The notes below the pieces were generated by a model, which made no database searches, had not been told where the DNA came from, and saw only the letters and a program-made list of their open reading frames with translations. From the NCBI GenBank assembly GCA_023265025.1, contig JAHFUP010000044.1, positions 1 to 40,351 of the forward strand: a stretch of DNA of 40,351 nt, read 5' to 3'. The stretch comes from Acidimicrobiia bacterium. Its GTDB lineage: Bacteria; Actinomycetota; Acidimicrobiia; Acidimicrobiales; AC-14. A program made the translations under genes and the position numbers. Positions 8,889 to 40,231 of this stretch are shown here, in pieces; within the stretch, counting starts at the first letter, position 1; each line of letters opens with the position of its first letter.

Positions 8889-9437
8889 ATGGCGTACCGG
8901 GAGCCGTTCGAGAGGGTGCTGTCGGCCGCCCAGGCCGACACCCCGTGGGCCTACGAGCAGCTGTACCGCTCGCTGTCCCCGTCGATCTGCGGCTACCTGC
9001 GCCTCCAGGGCGTGGCCGACCCGGAGGACCTCACCAGCGAGGTCTTCCTCGGCGCGTTCCGGGGGATCAGGTCGTTCAGGGGCGACGAGGCCAAGTTCCG
9101 CTCGTGGGTGTTCACCATCGCCCACCGCCGGCTGACCGACGAGCGCCGGGCCCGCGGGTGCCGCCCGCAGACGGCCGACGCCGAGCTGGGCGACATCGCC
9201 GGCGGCGACGTCGAGGAGGAGGCCCTGCGCCGGCTCTCGGCCGACCGGGTCCGCTCGCTGTGCGCCGGCCTCGCCCCCGACCAGGGCGACGTCCTCCTGC
9301 TCCGGCTCGTCTCCGGCCTCACCGTCGAGGCCATCGCCGGCGTGCTGGGCAAGAACACCGGGGCGGTCAAGGCCCTCCAGCGCCGGGGCCTCTGCGCCCT
9401 CCGCAAAACAATCGAGCGCGAGGGCGTACCCCTGTGA
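8889..9437 (+). CDS. ECF-type RNA polymerase sigma factor
   Basis: 182 residues. Sigma region 2 is clear (PWAYEQLYRSLSPSICGYLR, DPEDLTSEVFLGAFRGI, then FRSWVFTIAHRRLTDERR). Region 4 follows (LAPDQGDVLLLRLVSGLTVE, AIAGVLGKNTGAVKALQRRG) with a helix-turn-helix. There is no region 1 or 3, which defines the ECF group. Its stop overlaps the GTG of the next gene (GTGA), the arrangement typical of an ECF sigma factor and its anti-sigma partner. ECF factors usually transcribe their own operon after an envelope signal, so the upstream ABC pair and the downstream Cys-repeat protein are reasonable candidate targets. The Shine-Dalgarno is weak. Confidence 0.93.
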   Translation: MAYREPFERVLSAAQADTPWAYEQLYRSLSPSICGYLRLQGVADPEDLTSEVFLGAFRGIRSFRGDEAKFRSWVFTIAHRRLTDERRARGCRPQTADAELGDIAGGDVEEEALRRLSADRVRSLCAGLAPDQGDVLLLRLVSGLTVEAIAGVLGKNTGAVKALQRRGLCALRKTIEREGVPL

Positions 9438-32825: not shown

Positions 32826-33689
32826 GTGCGGACCAGATTTTCCATGCTCATCCCTGCGGTCGCGCTTGCGGCCGCCCTGACCGCCTGCGGCGACGACGGG
32901 CCGAACAAGGCCGAGTTCGTGGCCAAAGCCGACGCCGCGTGCGCCCCGGGCAACAACGCCATCTCCACGACGGCGAAGCCCACCAACGCCCCCCAGGTCG
33001 CCACCGCGTCGGGCACCGCCGTCACCACCATCGACAGCCAGGTCACCGCGCTGCGGGCACTGAAGATGCCCGGCGGCAAGGACAAGGCCCAGATCCAGGC
33101 CATCGTCGCCGCCATCGCCGACGTCAGCGCCCCCACCAAGGCGCTCCAGGACGCGGCCGGCAAGACCGACGACGCAGCCATGGCCAAGGCCGCTCTCGAC
33201 ATGCAGGCCAAGGCCGACGCGGCCAACAAGTCGGCCGAGGCCTACGGGCTGGCCCAGTGCGGCACCCAGCTCAAGTTCGGCCTGGGGAACATGTTCGACG
33301 GCGTGAAGAACGTGGTGAAGGCGACCTACGTCCAAAAGGCCGAGACCCTGTGCCGCGAGTACTACCGCAAGAGTGACGCCCTCGGAGTGCCGGGCAGCAC
33401 GCCGGCCTCCTTCGCTCGCTACCTTGATTCCTTCCTCACGCTCACGACCAAGCTCGTAACCGACATCAAGGCCATCCCCACCCCACCGGGCGACGAGGCC
33501 ACCATCGCCGACATCGGCACGGCCATGGACGCCGCTCTCGGCAAGTTCAAGGATGCCGGCGAGGCGCTCAAGGCCGGCAACGGCCGGCTGGCGATCGGCC
33601 TCTTCGAGGAGGCAGATGTGGCCAACACGGCGATGAACGCCAGGTTCGACGCCTACGGGCTGCCGGTCTGCGGTTCGACCGGGCCGTGA
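32826..33689 (+). CDS. Two-repeat lipoprotein, copy A1
   Basis: 287 residues from GTG at 32826 (AGAGGA 8 nt upstream). The signal peptide ends in the lipobox ALTAC (Cys21). The mature part is two related halves: Cys39 and Cys145 in the first, Cys176 and Cys282 in the second, each pair exactly 106 residues apart. Shared motifs are FVAKADAAC/YVQKAETLC, ALRALKMPGG/DIKAIPTPPG and AYGLAQCG/AYGLPVCG. Helix-rich Ala/Lys content suggests helical bundles closed by a disulfide. No known family was recognised. It overlaps B1 (GTGA). Residues 1-167 are nearly identical to A2. Confidence 0.87.
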   Translation: MRTRFSMLIPAVALAAALTACGDDGPNKAEFVAKADAACAPGNNAISTTAKPTNAPQVATASGTAVTTIDSQVTALRALKMPGGKDKAQIQAIVAAIADVSAPTKALQDAAGKTDDAAMAKAALDMQAKADAANKSAEAYGLAQCGTQLKFGLGNMFDGVKNVVKATYVQKAETLCREYYRKSDALGVPGSTPASFARYLDSFLTLTTKLVTDIKAIPTPPGDEATIADIGTAMDAALGKFKDAGEALKAGNGRLAIGLFEEADVANTAMNARFDAYGLPVCGSTGP

Positions 33690-34546
33690 GCCTCCACCGG
33701 TTCGGCCCTCTCGTGGGCACGCTGGCCCTCGCCGCGGGACTCGCGGCCTGCGGCGGCGGCGTGTCGAAGTCCAGCTTCGTGTCCAAGGCCGACGGCGCCT
33801 GCGGGTCGGGCAACGCCACGCTCGGGGGGGTCGCCAAACCGACGAACCTGCCTGAGCTGGCCACCGCCGCCGGCACCGTGGCCACCACCGTCGACACCCA
33901 GGCCGGGGCCCTGCGCGCCATCAAGGCGCCCGGCGACGACAAGGCCGCCATCGCCGGCGTGATCGCGGCACTGGCCGATGTCGCCGCGCCAGCGCGTGCC
34001 CTGCAGGATGCGGCGGGCAAGGCCGATGACGCAGCAACGGCCCGCGCCGTCACCGCGCTGAAGGCCAAGGTCGACGCCGCGTCGACACAGGCCACGACCT
34101 ACGGGCTCACGGCCTGCGGCGCGGGCCTCCAGACGCCGGTCAATACGGTCTTCGACGGCGGCAAGGCGGTGCTCAAGGCGGCATACGTCGCTCGGGCCGA
34201 CGCGCTCTGCACCGCGGCCAACAGGAAGGCGGACGCCCTCAACCAAGGCAGCTCGCTGGCCGCGTACGGCCGGTACCTGGTCATCTACATCCCCATTGAG
34301 GAAAAGCTCTTCGCCGACATCAAGGCGCTCGTGACGCCGCCGGGCGACGAGGCGACAGTGGCCGACATGCTGGCCGCACAGGACAAGGTCATCGCCAACG
34401 ACAAGGACACCCGCGCTGCGGCGCAAAAGGGTGACTCGGCCCAGGTCGACCGCTTGGGCGACCTCAACAACACCTTCGTCACCCAGTCCAACTCCAAGTT
34501 CGACGCCTACGGCCTGCGCAACTGCGGGACCCTCGGCAACTTCTGA
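33686..34546 (+). CDS. Two-repeat lipoprotein, copy B1
   Basis: 286 residues from GTG at 33686, overlapping the A1 stop by 4 nt. Lipobox LAAC (Cys22). It has the same two-half plan as A1: Cys39/Cys144 (FVSKADGAC, TYGLTACG) and a second pair (ARADALC, AYGLRNCG). Motifs ALRAIKAPGDDKAAI and DIKALVTPPGDEATV align with A1. It forms a two-gene unit with A1. Function not known. Confidence 0.87.
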   Translation: MSLHRFGPLVGTLALAAGLAACGGGVSKSSFVSKADGACGSGNATLGGVAKPTNLPELATAAGTVATTVDTQAGALRAIKAPGDDKAAIAGVIAALADVAAPARALQDAAGKADDAATARAVTALKAKVDAASTQATTYGLTACGAGLQTPVNTVFDGGKAVLKAAYVARADALCTAANRKADALNQGSSLAAYGRYLVIYIPIEEKLFADIKALVTPPGDEATVADMLAAQDKVIANDKDTRAAAQKGDSAQVDRLGDLNNTFVTQSNSKFDAYGLRNCGTLGNF

Positions 34547-34607
34547 CCTCCGGGGCCGAGCGGTGAAACGTGGACATGACAAACTCCATCGGCGAGAGGA
34601 ACCTCAC

Positions 34608-35471
34608 GTGCGGACCAGATTTTCCATGCTCATCCCTGCGGTCGCGCTTGCGGCCGCCCTGACCGCCTGCGGCGACGACGGGCCGAACAAGGCCGAGTTC
34701 GTGGCCAAGGCCGACGCCGCGTGCGCGCCGGGCAACAACGCCATCTCCACGACGGCGAAGCCCACCAACGCCCCCCAGGTCGCCACCGCGTCGGGCACCG
34801 CCGTCACCACCATCGACAGCCAGGTCACCGCGCTGCGGGCACTGAAGATGCCCGGCGGCAAGGACAAGGCCCAGATCCAGGCCATCGTCGCCGCCATCGC
34901 CGACGTCAGCGTGCCGACCAAGGCGCTCCAGGACGCGGCCGGAAAGACCGACGACGCAGCCATGGCCAAGGCCGCTCTCGACATGCAGGCCAAGGCCGAC
35001 GCGGCCAACAAGTCGGCCGAGGCCTACGGGCTGGCCCAGTGCGGCACCCAGCTCAAGTTCGGACTGGGCAACATGTTCGACGGCGTCAAGAACGTGGTGA
35101 AGGCGACGTTCGTGTCCAAGACCGAAACCCTGTGCCGGGACTTCGACCGCAAGGCCAGTTCGATCACCCGCCCGGGGAGCACGCTGGCGTCGCTCACCCG
35201 CTACATCGATACCTTCACCCCCGTGATGAACAAGTTCGTGGCCGACATCCGGGCCCTCACCGTGGCGCCGGGCGACGAGGGGGCCATCAGTGAGCTGACG
35301 GCGGCCCTGGACAACCTGATCGCCAAGTTCAAGGAGATCGGCGCCGCCGCCGTGTCCAACAACCCGCGCCTGGCCGGCGGCCTGGTCAACGAGCTCGACG
35401 TGGCCGGCACGGCCGTCAACGCCAAGTTCGACGCCTACGGTCTGACCGTCTGCGGATCGGCCGGCGTGTGA
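34608..35471 (+). CDS. Two-repeat lipoprotein, copy A2
   Basis: 287 residues from GTG at 34608 with GAGAGGA upstream. The first 167 residues differ from A1 only at residue 102 (Ala to Val). From about residue 168 on, the two diverge clearly (RDFDRKASSITRPGS against REYYRKSDALGVPGS), with the cysteine frame kept. The identity border lies near nucleotide 35107 (33325 in A1). Lipobox and repeat plan as in A1. Coupled to B2 through GTGA. Confidence 0.87.
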   Translation: MRTRFSMLIPAVALAAALTACGDDGPNKAEFVAKADAACAPGNNAISTTAKPTNAPQVATASGTAVTTIDSQVTALRALKMPGGKDKAQIQAIVAAIADVSVPTKALQDAAGKTDDAAMAKAALDMQAKADAANKSAEAYGLAQCGTQLKFGLGNMFDGVKNVVKATFVSKTETLCRDFDRKASSITRPGSTLASLTRYIDTFTPVMNKFVADIRALTVAPGDEGAISELTAALDNLIAKFKEIGAAAVSNNPRLAGGLVNELDVAGTAVNAKFDAYGLTVCGSAGV

Positions 35472-36328
35472 GCGCCTGGCGGTTCGGCCCCTTCGTCAGC
35501 GCCCTGGCCCTGGCCGCCGGCCTGGCCGCGTGCGGCGGCGGCGTGTCCAAGTCGGGCTACGTGTCCAAGGCGGACGTGGCGTGTGGGCCGGGTAACGCCT
35601 CGCTCGGGGCGGTCGCCAAGCCGTCGAACCTCCCGGAGCTGGCCACGGCGGCCGGCACCGTGGCCACGACCGTCGACGCCCAGGCCGGCGCACTACGCGC
35701 CATCAAGGCGCCCGGCGACGACAAGGCCGCCGTCGCCGACGTGATCGGCGCCCTCGCCGAGGTCGCCGCACCGGCCCGCGCTCTGCAGGACGCGGCGGGT
35801 AAATCGGACGACGCGGCGACGGCACGGGCGATCAACGACCTCAAGGCCAAGGCCGACGCCGCGTCGACACGGGCCTCCACCTACGGCCTCGCTGCGTGCG
35901 CGGTCGGCCTCAAGGCGCCCGTCGCGACCGTGTTCGACGGAGGGAAGACGGTGATCAAGGCGGCGTACGTCGCCCGGGCCGACTCGCTCTGCACCGCGGC
36001 GAACAAGAAGGCCGAGGGCCTCGCCGCACCCACATCGCTGGCGTCGTTCAGCCGCTTCCTAGTTGCCTATATCCCGATCGAGGAGAAGCTGCTCAACGAC
36101 ATCAAGGCGCTGGTCGCCCCGCCCGGCGACGAGGCCACCATCGCCGACATCGTCGCCGCCCAGGACAAGGTCATCGCCAACGACAAGGACACCCAGGCCG
36201 CGGCCCAGAAGGGCAGCACGGCCCAGGTCGACAAGTTCGACGACCTCAACACCATGCTCATCACCCAGGCCCACGCCAAGTTCGACACCTACGGCCTTCG
36301 CAACTGCGGGACGCTCGGGAACTTCTGA
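35468..36328 (+). CDS. Two-repeat lipoprotein, copy B2
   Basis: 286 residues from GTG at 35468, overlapping the A2 stop. It aligns with B1 along its whole length with scattered differences, unlike the A1/A2 pattern. Lipobox LAAC. Cysteines follow the same spacing (YVSKADVAC, LAACAVG, ARADSLC, LRNCGTLG). It is the last gene of the unit and is followed by a strong hairpin. Confidence 0.87.
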   Translation: MSAWRFGPFVSALALAAGLAACGGGVSKSGYVSKADVACGPGNASLGAVAKPSNLPELATAAGTVATTVDAQAGALRAIKAPGDDKAAVADVIGALAEVAAPARALQDAAGKSDDAATARAINDLKAKADAASTRASTYGLAACAVGLKAPVATVFDGGKTVIKAAYVARADSLCTAANKKAEGLAAPTSLASFSRFLVAYIPIEEKLLNDIKALVAPPGDEATIADIVAAQDKVIANDKDTQAAAQKGSTAQVDKFDDLNTMLITQAHAKFDTYGLRNCGTLGNF

Positions 36329-36361: not shown

Positions 36362-36804
36362 AATCCAACTGGCCGTGACTCGATACGGAGTCAGAGCGCC
36401 GAACCGCTCGGTTCGGAGAAGACCGTCCGTGAAATCCGGTGGCTCAGGGCTGCTCCGCCGAAGCCCCCGTCACCGGGACGCTTCACCGAACCACTCCTAC
36501 GGGACACGAGCTGAAGTCGTGCCCTCGCGGAGCATCGCCATCCGCTGAGATTTCCTCCTGCGGGCCAGGGTCGTCGTTGCTCCTGCGGGACCCCGGTCGT
36601 CGTTGGTGAACTGGTCGGTGATCTCGTCAGATCGGTAGGCGTACGACGAGAGGTCGATCGTCGACTGAGCCTACGTTCCTCACGAGCTACCGCGATCGGA
36701 CCTGTGACGCCTATGCCTTCACTTCCTCGCCACGGGTAGCGGCGATTACCCGTTATCGTTGCGACAACCCTTGTCCCGTGCCACGGGCCAGGGCGAAAAG
36801 CGAG
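36362..36804. other. 443-nt non-coding region with small hairpins and two copies of the 26-nt repeat
   Basis: No gene was recognised here. It holds CCGAACC/GGTTCGG (about 36399-36416), an imperfect hairpin at 36501-36524 (GGGACACGA ... TCGTGCCC), two units of the 26-nt repeat that is tandem at 37506 (36552-36602), and ACGGGTA/TACCCGT near 36734-36756, just before the next gene. Confidence 0.5.
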
Positions 36805-37505: not shown

Positions 37506-37710
37506 CGTTCCTCCTGCGGCACCCCGGTCGTCGTTCCTCCTGCGGGACCCCGGTCGTCGTTCCTCCTGCGGGACCCGGTCGTCGTTCCTCCTGCGGCACC
37601 CCGGTCGTCGTTCCTCCTGCGGGCTCCGGACGCCGTTCCTGCCGGCCCCGGGTCGTGGTTCCTGCTGCGGGAGCGCCCGATAGTCGTTCCTCCTACCCAC
37701 CCCGGGTCAC
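37506..37710. repeat. 26-nt tandem repeat array
   Basis: About eight head-to-tail units, with no spacers. The first four are near identical (37506-37531, 37532-37557, 37558-37582 with one base deleted, 37583-37608): each begins TTCCTCCTGCGG and ends CGGTCGTCG. Later units decay (37609-37710) and the last runs into the stop of the TPR gene. Two more units lie at 36552-36602. Confidence 0.85.
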
Positions 37711-38876
37711 CGCTCCTTCTCCGGCGCAGGACCGATGTCGAGGGGCGCAGATTTCACGTTCAGAGGCTGGGCCGTGTTTTTCTCCATCGTGAGTGGCCCC
37801 GCCTTGAGCTTGGTGATAGTCGGAAAGGAAAACGCGCACAGAACGAGAAGCAAGGATCCGAGTACCAGGCTGCTAAAGCCAGTAGACGTCAAATCCTTGC
37901 CATCGAGCCTGACGAGAAGTATGGCGATCAGGATTGCCGCTCCCGCTGTGACGAGGTAGGGAAGCCACACCGGCGGGAGGCCTGATGAAACGCCCCGTCT
38001 CCGGTTGATGCGCCGCAGGTTGCGCTCCGCGACCCGTCCGATGCCACTGCCCGGGTCCGACCGGTGCACACTGGCGTCGAAGGCCCGGGCTGCCTCCCCG
38101 ATCCGCGACAGCTTCATCAACGCATATCCTCGCAACAGAGCTACCAGCGCGTGGGGCTCGGACTTCGGGGGGTCACCCTGGAGACGCGGGAGCACAGGTT
38201 TCGCTTCGTCTAGTTCCCCGAGGGCATCCAGATAGAAGGCGTCGTCGAGGTACCGGTCGCCCATGTCGATATAAATCTGGGCGAGGGTAGCCCGGACGTG
38301 CCAAGTCGGGCTCTTGTCGGCGAGGATCGCCTGCTGTCCCCGCCGCTCGGCCTCGGCGAGGTCGCCGTTGCGCCGGAGTGCCTCGGCCAGGTTGTTCAGA
38401 GTAGCCGCCGACCTGTCCCCCTCCTCGACCGCCCGCCGGAGCGCAGCCTCGGCCTCTTTGTACTCGCCAACCTGTAGATGAGCGAGTCCGAGGACGGACC
38501 AGGCGTCTGCCCGGTCCGGTTCCTTTTGAAGCGCCAGCGTGAGTGCCTCTATGGCCTTGGTCGGCTTGCCGAGCCGCATGGCCAGCCATCCCTGGACAAG
38601 CCGCACGTACGCCACGACCTCGTCGGCCTCGGGCCCGGGGTGCTTCTGCGCGATCCGGAGGACGTCGGCGCTCGCCTTCCTCGACGTCTCCCACTGATCC
38701 GTCTCGTAGGCCGCCCGGGCTAGGAGGGCATTCGCGATCAGGACATCCTCCTCGTGCTCATCTTCGGAGAGCTGGGCGAGGGCTATATCGAGCAGTTTGA
38801 TGGCGTCGCCCCATTGCTCCCGGTGGCACGCGTCCTCGGCCCGCCCGATGAAGGCGATCGCTTCCGCCTCCCCCAT
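37707..38876 (-). CDS. TPR protein with C-terminal membrane anchor
   Basis: 389 residues. Residues 1-290 hold helical pairs of the tetratricopeptide type (DAIKLLDIALAQL, AIEALTLALQKEPDRADAWS, VLGLAHLQVGEYKEAEAALR, NNLAEALRRNGDLAEAERRG, GYALMKLSRIGEAARAFDAS). Two membrane helices follow at about 303-323 and 334-353. A short tail (EKNTAQPLNVKSAPLD) ends the protein. There is no signal peptide, so the TPR part is cytoplasmic. It starts 1 nt after the protease stop. TPR proteins are scaffolds; here the partner is likely the protease. Confidence 0.88.
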   Translation of the reverse strand: MGEAEAIAFIGRAEDACHREQWGDAIKLLDIALAQLSEDEHEEDVLIANALLARAAYETDQWETSRKASADVLRIAQKHPGPEADEVVAYVRLVQGWLAMRLGKPTKAIEALTLALQKEPDRADAWSVLGLAHLQVGEYKEAEAALRRAVEEGDRSAATLNNLAEALRRNGDLAEAERRGQQAILADKSPTWHVRATLAQIYIDMGDRYLDDAFYLDALGELDEAKPVLPRLQGDPPKSEPHALVALLRGYALMKLSRIGEAARAFDASVHRSDPGSGIGRVAERNLRRINRRRGVSSGLPPVWLPYLVTAGAAILIAILLVRLDGKDLTSTGFSSLVLGSLLLVLCAFSFPTITKLKAGPLTMEKNTAQPLNVKSAPLDIGPAPEKER

Positions 38877-38877
38877 G

Positions 38878-40008
38878 TCATCGCCCCCTCCACTGGAGTA
38901 CCACCCCGCCTTCGGAGAACGGCCGTCCCATTGCGAGAACGCTCGCCGTGGCCGCCGAAGGGATCGTTCCTGGCTGCATGGTGCGAGCGATCTCTCCTGC
39001 CACCGATGCCGCGGCGAAGGACGTCCCGCTCCACTCGGCGTAGCCGTTGAAGGCCACCATCGATCCCGTGGACGGAGCTTGACGCCCTTGAAATGTGACG
39101 AAGCTACTTATGACGTCAACACCAGTGGCCCAGGCGTTGACCCACGGTCCGTAGTTGCTGAAGAGCGCCCGCGATCCTTCCCCGTCGATAGCGCCCACGG
39201 CCAGGACTGACGAGGCGGCTGCGGGCCAGAACGGCCGATCGCTGGCAAAGTTGCCCGCCGCCCCAACTATGGCGGTGTCGGCGCTCAGACCGTGGAGGGC
39301 ACGTCGGAGGGCAGGGGAAAGGCGGTCGTCGCTTGTGTAGCCGCCGAAGGGCAAGAGCACCACGTCAGCGTCGATCGAAAGCAGGGCGGAGGCCAACGCC
39401 AGGTCGTCGCCGGTCCCGCGTACATCCAGATCAGAACGAACCTGGACGGTCGCTCCTGGCGCGTGCTGGACAACGATGCCGGCGACGAACGTCCCGTGGC
39501 CAGCGAACGGGCCGAGCGCCCCGTCGGGGTCGACGTCGAGGGCGTCGTCGTCCTGGCGGCCCCGGGACCGCACCCGGTCGGCGAGGTAGGGATGGTCGAG
39601 TTTTACCCCGGTGTCGAGCACCGCCACCCGTACGCCACGCCCGCCGCCATCGATCGGACGTGGAGGCACGGTTCTCGTCGGTCTGGGAAGGGCTGGAAGC
39701 TGCGGCAGCGTGTCGTCGTGGATCATTGCGGCCTGGAAGACGTGGTTGAGATGGACAACCGGCTGCTCGAGTCGGCGCCGCATCTCCTCGACGATCGCCG
39801 GCAGGTCGAACTCCTCGGGAATCGCGACGATGGCCAGCCCGAGATCGTCCTCTACCGATGTCGTCTCGCCGTGGTACTCCCGGATGACGCCTTCGGCGCT
39901 TTCGAGGGCGTCGGTTGCCACGAGGAGCTGGCCCGGCCGATAGAGGAAGTTGCCGACAGGGGACTCGCCCAGGGCGATGGCCTCACGAGTCCGCTCGTCG
40001 CCGTTCAT
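38878..40008 (-). CDS. Subtilisin-like (S8) serine protease, no signal peptide
   Basis: 376 residues from ATG at 40008. The catalytic triad is Asp132 (VAVLDTGV), His171 (GHGTFVAGI) and Ser330 (WSGTSFAAASVAGEIA), with oxyanion Asn253 (GAAGNFA). The N-terminal 120 residues look like an inhibitor/propeptide-like domain (YRPGQLLVATDALESAEGVI, DLGLAIVAIPEEFDLPAIVE). No signal peptide or membrane helix is seen, so it is probably cytoplasmic. It is followed after 1 nt by the membrane-anchored TPR gene. The substrate is unknown. Confidence 0.9.
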   Translation of the reverse strand: MNGDERTREAIALGESPVGNFLYRPGQLLVATDALESAEGVIREYHGETTSVEDDLGLAIVAIPEEFDLPAIVEEMRRRLEQPVVHLNHVFQAAMIHDDTLPQLPALPRPTRTVPPRPIDGGGRGVRVAVLDTGVKLDHPYLADRVRSRGRQDDDALDVDPDGALGPFAGHGTFVAGIVVQHAPGATVQVRSDLDVRGTGDDLALASALLSIDADVVLLPFGGYTSDDRLSPALRRALHGLSADTAIVGAAGNFASDRPFWPAAASSVLAVGAIDGEGSRALFSNYGPWVNAWATGVDVISSFVTFQGRQAPSTGSMVAFNGYAEWSGTSFAAASVAGEIARTMQPGTIPSAATASVLAMGRPFSEGGVVLQWRGR

Positions 40009-40231
40009 ACCGCCCCTCGCCTCGTTTCGACTGAATGCGAGTCCAGAACAACCGCGTGCCGCACCGACGCCGATGTCTCGGCGTCAGACGGTTGACAACG
40101 GTTTACGCGATCACCAAGTTGGCCCATCTGCCCGAAGCGAGCTACGACGGACCGACAAACAGAGTCTTGATCCGGCCGCCGTTCATGTCAACCCTGCGGA
40201 GGCGCGTTGAAATGAGGTCCCCCAGCCGGTA
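40009..40231. other. Non-coding region upstream of the protease gene
   Basis: No gene was recognised. It should carry the promoter of the protease-TPR pair; TTGACA occurs at about 40095 on the plus strand but without a convincing -10. Confidence 0.3.

Follow-up and report, generated by a model that had tools for sequence, protein, structure and literature searches.

Why should a gene for a subtilisin-like protease be followed, one nucleotide later, by a gene for a membrane-anchored tetratricopeptide repeat (TPR) protein, and do the two form a system of their own? We examined such a pair near one end of contig JAHFUP010000044.1 of an Acidimicrobiia bacterium (assembly GCA_023265025.1); this contig, which is number 172 of 185 in a draft genome of 5.45 Mb that is 98.4% complete, was analyzed over its whole length of 40,351 nucleotides and is referred to below as the window. 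The pair is a variant, found once and with its upstream side behind a contig break, of a recurrent locus in which a protease of peptidase family S8 is encoded together with a TPR protein carrying a caspase-like CHAT domain (TPR-CHAT) and often with an extracytoplasmic function (ECF) sigma factor. We see in it an apparent single exchange of partner, not a new and widespread system. Our tentative reading is that the window protease, an intracellular subtilase of the TPR-CHAT type, no longer has its customary partners and has become coupled to a TPR protein tethered in the membrane, which probably serves to dock or activate the protease.

The protease and its TPR neighbor

The window protease is a member of peptidase family S8: it matches Peptidase_S8 (PF00082) over residues 123 to 345 (E value of 2e-26; 93.4 bits against a curated Pfam cut-off of 21.8), and the catalytic triad Asp132, His171, and Ser330 is invariant, together with the oxyanion residue Asn253, in an alignment with four relatives. 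A simple hydropathy scan found no hydrophobic N terminus that could serve as a signal peptide, and the sole hydrophobic stretch begins at residue 203, within the catalytic domain. The original prediction, made from the DNA alone, of a cytoplasmic S8 protease with a complete triad was thus borne out, and we rejected a secreted subtilase on the same hydropathy result. A mycosin of the type VII secretion system was likewise rejected, as the NCBIfam equivalog TIGR03921 scored 86.5 bits against a cut-off of 278.75. Solved S8 structures match chiefly the catalytic part of the protein (the best, 1dbi, with an E value of 1.7e-17 over residues 116 to 331), and some PCSK9 structure entries match from residue 84. 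In a single-sequence AlphaFold model the N-terminal domain shows strands and two helices in a ferredoxin-like order, with predicted local distance difference test (pLDDT) values of 61 to 74 over residues 21 to 80, and the fervidolysin N-pro family of Pfam gives a weak match below its cut-off (E value of 0.057); the domain may therefore resemble a prodomain.

The second protein matches several TPR families, the best being PF13432 (E value of 2.1e-16). AlphaFold, again run on the single sequence, predicts a TPR superhelix with high confidence (pLDDT of 92 to 98 over residues 11 to 170, falling from 89 to 73 over residues 171 to 200); the model is uninformative from about residue 212, with values below 50 over most of residues 212 to 375, transmembrane part included. 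A fold search with this model returned TPR proteins or complexes containing them in all of the 50 matches listed. The two C-terminal membrane helices that had been proposed correspond to two hydrophobic segments starting at residues 303 and 337, which were called by a simple hydropathy scan (Kyte-Doolittle, 19-residue windows). The basic motif RRINRRR precedes the first segment and KLK follows the second, so that by the established positive-inside rule, applied here by eye, both ends of the protein are predicted to be cytoplasmic.

The two open reading frames (ORFs) lie on the minus strand, 1 nt apart as first described, and both were retained by a codon-score gene caller. A GGAGG motif ends 10 nt before the ATG of the TPR gene; together with the 1-nt spacing it favors coupled expression of the two genes and suggests translational coupling.

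Relatives of the protease and their usual partners

To place the pair, we surveyed the neighborhoods of related S8 genes. Among 298 genomes of the order, 24 had S8 matches at an E value of ≤1e-15, at no fewer than 30 places with the window counted, and the other 29 were fetched. Among 386 genomes of the phylum, at least 29 places matched; three were the window, contig 79 of its genome, and a place fetched before, and of the 26 new ones 20 were fetched. With one Nonomuraea locus added, the sample comprises 50 S8 loci, and the counts of places are lower bounds, as six candidates were scored per genome in the order searches and five in the phylum S8 search. Genes were labeled CHAT, ECF, or TPR-CHAT with profiles built on four seed loci (L042, L043, L046, and L052). 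When these seeds were checked with Pfam, each long protein had a CHAT match above cut-off and a TPR match, the latter falling below its cut-off for L046. Sigma-70 region 2 was found in the three loci where it was tested (L042, L043, and L046), L052 having been checked for its TPR-CHAT gene only.

A TPR-CHAT gene was present in 43 of the 50 loci, its usual position being upstream of the S8 gene and divergent from it. In 39 of these it lies within 200 nt of the S8 gene or overlaps it when both are taken as longest ORFs; these frame overlaps are not real gene overlaps, since ORF starts were taken as the longest possible. The four more distant genes are in L145 (268 nt), L130 (758 nt), L042 (1,099 nt), and L144 (4,127 nt). 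The fetched stretch also held an ECF sigma gene in 33 loci and none in the other 17; in at least seven relatives (L042, L059, L064, L065, L070, L127, and L133) this gene stands directly downstream of the S8 gene on the same strand, the slot that the TPR gene occupies in the window. Contig 79 carries a complete locus of this kind: an S8 gene, a divergent TPR-CHAT gene, an ECF sigma gene, and a gene for a 161-aa protein without a Pfam match. In the literature on CHAT domains with subtilases or sigma factors we recognized no published description of this locus, most subscription papers being outside our reach. A Stenotrophomonas locus from a scan of genome contigs with the window protease was set aside as too weak to use (31% identity over residues 123 to 217).

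Seven loci had no TPR-CHAT gene. Two of these (L045 and L137) are cut by contig ends, four (L072, L074, L075, and L077) form a separate group in the S8 tree, and the seventh, L061 (8114 to 12311), has its S8 gene following a gene for a cyclase-ATPase-TPR protein in place of TPR-CHAT, indicating that S8 partners can change. Elsewhere, L050 shows a TPR part alone before its contig end, and the TPR-CHAT frame of L134 is split.

No match to the window TPR protein was found in any of the 50 loci at an E value of ≤1e-3. The pairing of a protease with a TPR protein thus holds as a general theme, carried by TPR-CHAT, whereas the specific combination of S8 with a TPR protein bearing two transmembrane segments (TPR-2TM) was found only in the window. 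The recurrent two-gene module that had been proposed did not emerge, and rare co-occurrence of the two genes, the outcome named beforehand as refuting it, is what our sample returned.

We built a FastTree phylogeny of 51 family members and five other S8 proteins of the window's genome. The window protease groups with those of L066, L045, and L131 (support of 0.888) inside a group of 11 (support of 0.946), and it thus falls within the S8 clade associated with TPR-CHAT and ECF genes. TPR-CHAT is in the locus of nine of the ten other members of the group (in L042 a sigma gene separates it from S8); the exception is L045, which a contig end truncates. The ancestral partner of the window protease was therefore most likely TPR-CHAT.

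The contig end and the missing partners

The window stops inside the end of a repeated element that resembles an insertion sequence and lies 219 nt upstream of the S8 gene, on the side where TPR-CHAT usually lies. The 124-nt element end occurs at seven places in the genome, window included, and the other six are within 62 nt of contig ends. An ISAs1-type element had been assigned here; a fragment resembling an insertion sequence is indeed present, but the ISAs1 label was not confirmed, as the transposase-like frame of 32 to 33 aa in the fragment matched nothing in Pfam or NCBIfam.

When the window was searched by tblastn with 42 CHAT ORFs and 32 from ECF genes (E value of ≤1), none of the 30 best matches lay in the stretch between the S8 gene and the element, where a TPR-CHAT remnant could have been left; the top two (E values of 0.007 and 0.010) are located on the TPR gene and were rejected as remnants because they look like ordinary TPR similarity. 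No TPR-CHAT gene was found in the window contig, and the ECF profile had no match there at 1e-4, the upstream side being visible for 343 nt in both cases; an ECF gene at 8889 to 9437, about 28 kb from the S8 gene, does not match that profile. In the assembly as a whole, CHAT was found at three places: on contig 79 beside the other S8 gene, on contig 45 in a protein of about 1,820 aa, and on contig 155 in a short gene. The last was rejected as a lost partner on account of its different neighbors, two frames of which look TIR-like by eye. This short CHAT gene and its TIR-like neighbors (L089, 2531 to 8324) possibly form a conflict island.

These searches bear on two alternative accounts of the locus. 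The TPR-CHAT and sigma genes may persist beyond the insertion element, with TPR-2TM an added component of a standard S8/TPR-CHAT/ECF system; the presence of TPR-CHAT in most relatives and the position of the contig break speak for this, but we consider it improbable: in searches of this 98.4% complete assembly, the contig 79 TPR-CHAT protein had no match other than itself, and no further TPR-CHAT gene, whole or fragmentary, was found. Since no remnant was seen either, loss of TPR-CHAT is likelier than a hidden copy, for which the contig break leaves room. Loss would equally suit a second account, in which recombination at the insertion element severed the protease from TPR-CHAT and the sigma gene and left a relict with an accidental neighbor, TPR-2TM being adjacent and sharing no work with it. 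The repeated element on the usual TPR-CHAT side, the absence of a second TPR-CHAT from the assembly, the single occurrence of the pair, and the separation from S8 of the only TPR relative found (see below) all suit a relict, whereas the 1-nt spacing, the intact catalytic residues, and the full-length frames suggest that both genes have been kept and are expressed together. We hold a relict to be possible, with some doubt.

Relatives of the TPR protein

A search with the full-length TPR protein recovered one relative, in a genome of the same family (G007), with 34% identity over residues 76 to 368; two of the 10 genomes had matches, one of them being the window's own. No further relatives were found in the 298 genomes of the order (six candidates scored per genome). 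The relative is a protein of 612 aa whose gene has as neighbors a membrane-dipeptidase gene and one resembling a gene for ribose-5-phosphate isomerase; G007 carries two S8 genes of the family on other contigs (L045 and L050).

Both TPR proteins share the tail P-x-[IV]-T-K-L-K-x-G, followed by E-K, after the second helix. A profile of the two tails recovered the same two proteins in 296 genomes of the order, the window protein alone in 301 genomes of the class, and, in 396 genomes of the phylum, the window protein plus four matches (L054 to L057; E values of 6.5e-5 to 5.4e-4); the three genome samples overlap. We judged the four to be chance, with no gene called in L054 and called genes without a TPR protein bearing the tail in L055 to L057. 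The shared tail is the best mark of a putative small TPR-2TM family, drawn from two sequences only.

Defense systems and mobile carriage

A defense role had also been suggested for the pair. No evidence of a defense island was found, and PADLOC gave only a match to its generic "subtilase" model (E value of 1.2e-11) and, for IetS, Cas3, and other models, weak matching stretches, with no partner from a known multigene defense system. One version of such a role is a cell-suicide pair in which the protease, upon infection, would cut the TPR protein and free or activate its two-helix segment as a membrane-damaging effector. It is encouraged by the position of the two helices after a stretch modeled with low confidence, and S8, trypsin-like, and caspase-like peptidases are found among predicted bacterial conflict systems (PMC7159879). 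We regard it as very unlikely: two short helices with charged flanks resemble a plain anchor, no defense family matched beyond the generic model and weak stretches, and our survey found no related pair.

Viral origin was rejected, as viral contigs held no relative of either protein in scans that reach close relatives only. Plasmid carriage of the TPR protein was rejected as well, since none of 72,556 plasmid records matched it at an E value of ≤1e-5. The window protease matches 82 plasmid records; its top match is to an 11.85-Mb sequence from Nonomuraea that is listed as a plasmid and carries an S8/ECF/TPR-CHAT locus.

Other features of the locus and its relatives

The features of the window and its relatives are collected in Table 1. 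The tandem repeats noted by the original prediction are real, and the core of their 26-bp unit occurs at the window locus only among the loci fetched. The two arrays flank one lipoprotein-like gene. Three consecutive genes at 33686 to 36328 of the window encode similar lipoprotein-like proteins of about 286 to 290 aa without a Pfam match. The neighbors tested on the visible side of the pair comprise such lipoprotein-like genes and others, such as a tRNA methyltransferase gene.

Table 1. Coordinates and basis of the features described (window positions unless a locus number is given)
Feature	Position	Strand	Basis or remark
26-bp tandem repeat, 2 copies	36555..36605	plus	repeat scan
Same 26-bp repeat, 7.8 copies, directly downstream of TPR stop codon	37506..37705	plus	repeat scan
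TPR protein, 389 aa; predicted superhelix at about residues 1-200	37707..38876	minus	ORF list, Pfam, hydropathy, AlphaFold
1-nt gap, S8 stop to TPR start	38877..38877	minus	ORF coordinates
S8 subtilase, 376 aa	38878..40008	minus	ORF list; PF00082; invariant catalytic residues in alignment
Prodomain-like N-terminal domain of S8 (putative)	about residues 20-86		strand/helix order in model
Intergenic stretch upstream of S8	40009..40227	none	site of divergent TPR-CHAT in most relatives
End of insertion-sequence-like repeated element, 124 nt, cut by contig end	40228..40351	minus	genome repeat search
S8/TPR-CHAT/ECF locus	L043 7835-13058		profile survey
S8 genes with linker arrays	L049, L050, L051, L059, L061-L065, L069-L071, L076, L128, L129, L132, L144		

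Near-perfect tandem arrays of units of five to six residues separate the N-terminal and catalytic domains in 17 of the 51 S8 family members. The units vary between lineages and are uniform within a protein (for example, ANPVY, PNYAA, TPYPGG, LANPAL, NPAEI, and NPAYQG), and each of those shown contains proline. Sixteen of the 17 array-bearing proteins fall in one clade of 18 (support of 0.997), in which the copies of the two further proteins, L048 and L052, are interrupted; the protein of L144 lies outside, and the remaining 32, the window protease among them, show no linker array by the same test. The node joining all 17 has a support of 0.041; the arrays may have arisen once and then been lost, or may have arisen twice. 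Our literature searches were not aimed at these repeats, and we make no claim that they are unreported. The array of L061 contains a 100-base run of N. A different S8 protein of the window's genome (L001, on contig 125) carries a C-terminal tandem array of SSWYG in about seven copies.

Discussion

The systems closest to the pair are the S8/TPR-CHAT/ECF loci themselves, such as those of contig 79 and of Nonomuraea gerenzanensis (NZ_LT559118). They share with the window an S8 protease of the same clade with a similar N-terminal domain, close S8 relatives without a signal peptide, and a TPR protein in the locus; they differ in that their TPR protein has a CHAT domain and an ECF gene is often part of the locus, neither of which is seen in the window pair's surroundings, and in that the window TPR protein is predicted to be membrane anchored. 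Intracellular subtilisins, which lack a signal peptide, and subtilases with a fervidolysin-type prodomain are alike in combining an S8 catalytic domain with a short N-terminal domain that may inhibit it; to our knowledge, neither has a TPR partner gene.

Partners of hydrolases at membranes offer a second comparison, and two of them, LbcA and NlpI, are reportedly TPR proteins. In the CtpA-LbcA and MepS-NlpI systems, a partner anchored in the membrane reportedly serves to activate a protease or to recruit a hydrolase (PMC11021448 and PMC11211486), and LbcA sets a precedent for the activation of a protease, CtpA, by its partner (PMC11021448). These systems belong to the Gram-negative envelope and employ lipoproteins and non-S8 enzymes, whereas the domains encoded in the window are predicted to be cytoplasmic and the enzyme is a subtilase. 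In the type III-E CRISPR complex Cas7-11-Csx29 (Craspase), a TPR-linked protease cuts the inhibitor of an ECF sigma factor and thereby controls that factor (PMC10028731); this resembles the TPR-CHAT and ECF layout of the S8 relatives, and Csx29 is a precedent for sigma factor control by a TPR-linked protease. The protease of Craspase is itself a CHAT protein and is RNA guided, and the window has no adjacent CHAT, matching sigma, or CRISPR gene. Finally, systems described in 2021 encode a peptidase, a TPR protein, and an ECF sigma factor together, as the S8 relatives do, and were interpreted as stimulus-driven immunity (PMC8195603); they differ in that the caspase domain comes with EACC2 and the TPR protein belongs to the DUF1822 family, and neither "subtilisin" nor "subtilase" occurs in the main text (PMC8195603).

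Under our tentative reading, the prodomain-like N-terminal domain would hold the S8 protease inactive, and the membrane-anchored TPR superhelix would bind, on the cytoplasmic side of the membrane, either the protease itself or its substrate or activator. Once a signal arrives, the enzyme would cut one or a few proteins there. Several observations weigh against such a partnership. The arrangement of S8 with TPR-2TM was found once, and the TPR relative in G007 has no S8 gene within the 16 kb fetched around it. The deep nodes of the S8 tree are weakly supported, some below 0.1, and the contig stops 343 nt upstream of the S8 start, inside the repeated element, so that the true upstream neighbor is unseen. 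The AlphaFold model of the protease is poor (mean pLDDT of 36.6), and a fold search of the PDB with it returned no match at an E value of ≤0.001; the prodomain therefore draws on two things, the order of secondary-structure elements and the sub-threshold Pfam match.

A bolder form of the preferred reading is that the subtilase has been rewired, its CHAT-TPR partner and sigma factor exchanged for a membrane-tethered TPR receptor, yielding a minimal switch of two proteins that would regulate proteolysis on the inner side of the membrane. We think this unlikely as it stands; if true, CHAT would be dispensable for signaling by the protease, and the exchangeable sensor would be the TPR part. The pair alone is a single case, and its value is as a pointer to a recurring locus of S8, TPR-CHAT, and often ECF genes, with a natural variant that is missing the caspase-like part. 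Contig 79 and the window contig place the locus and its variant in one genome, and their comparison could tell by which TPR protein the subtilase is controlled and whether a sigma factor mediates the effect of proteolysis, as in the CRISPR-linked Csx29 system.

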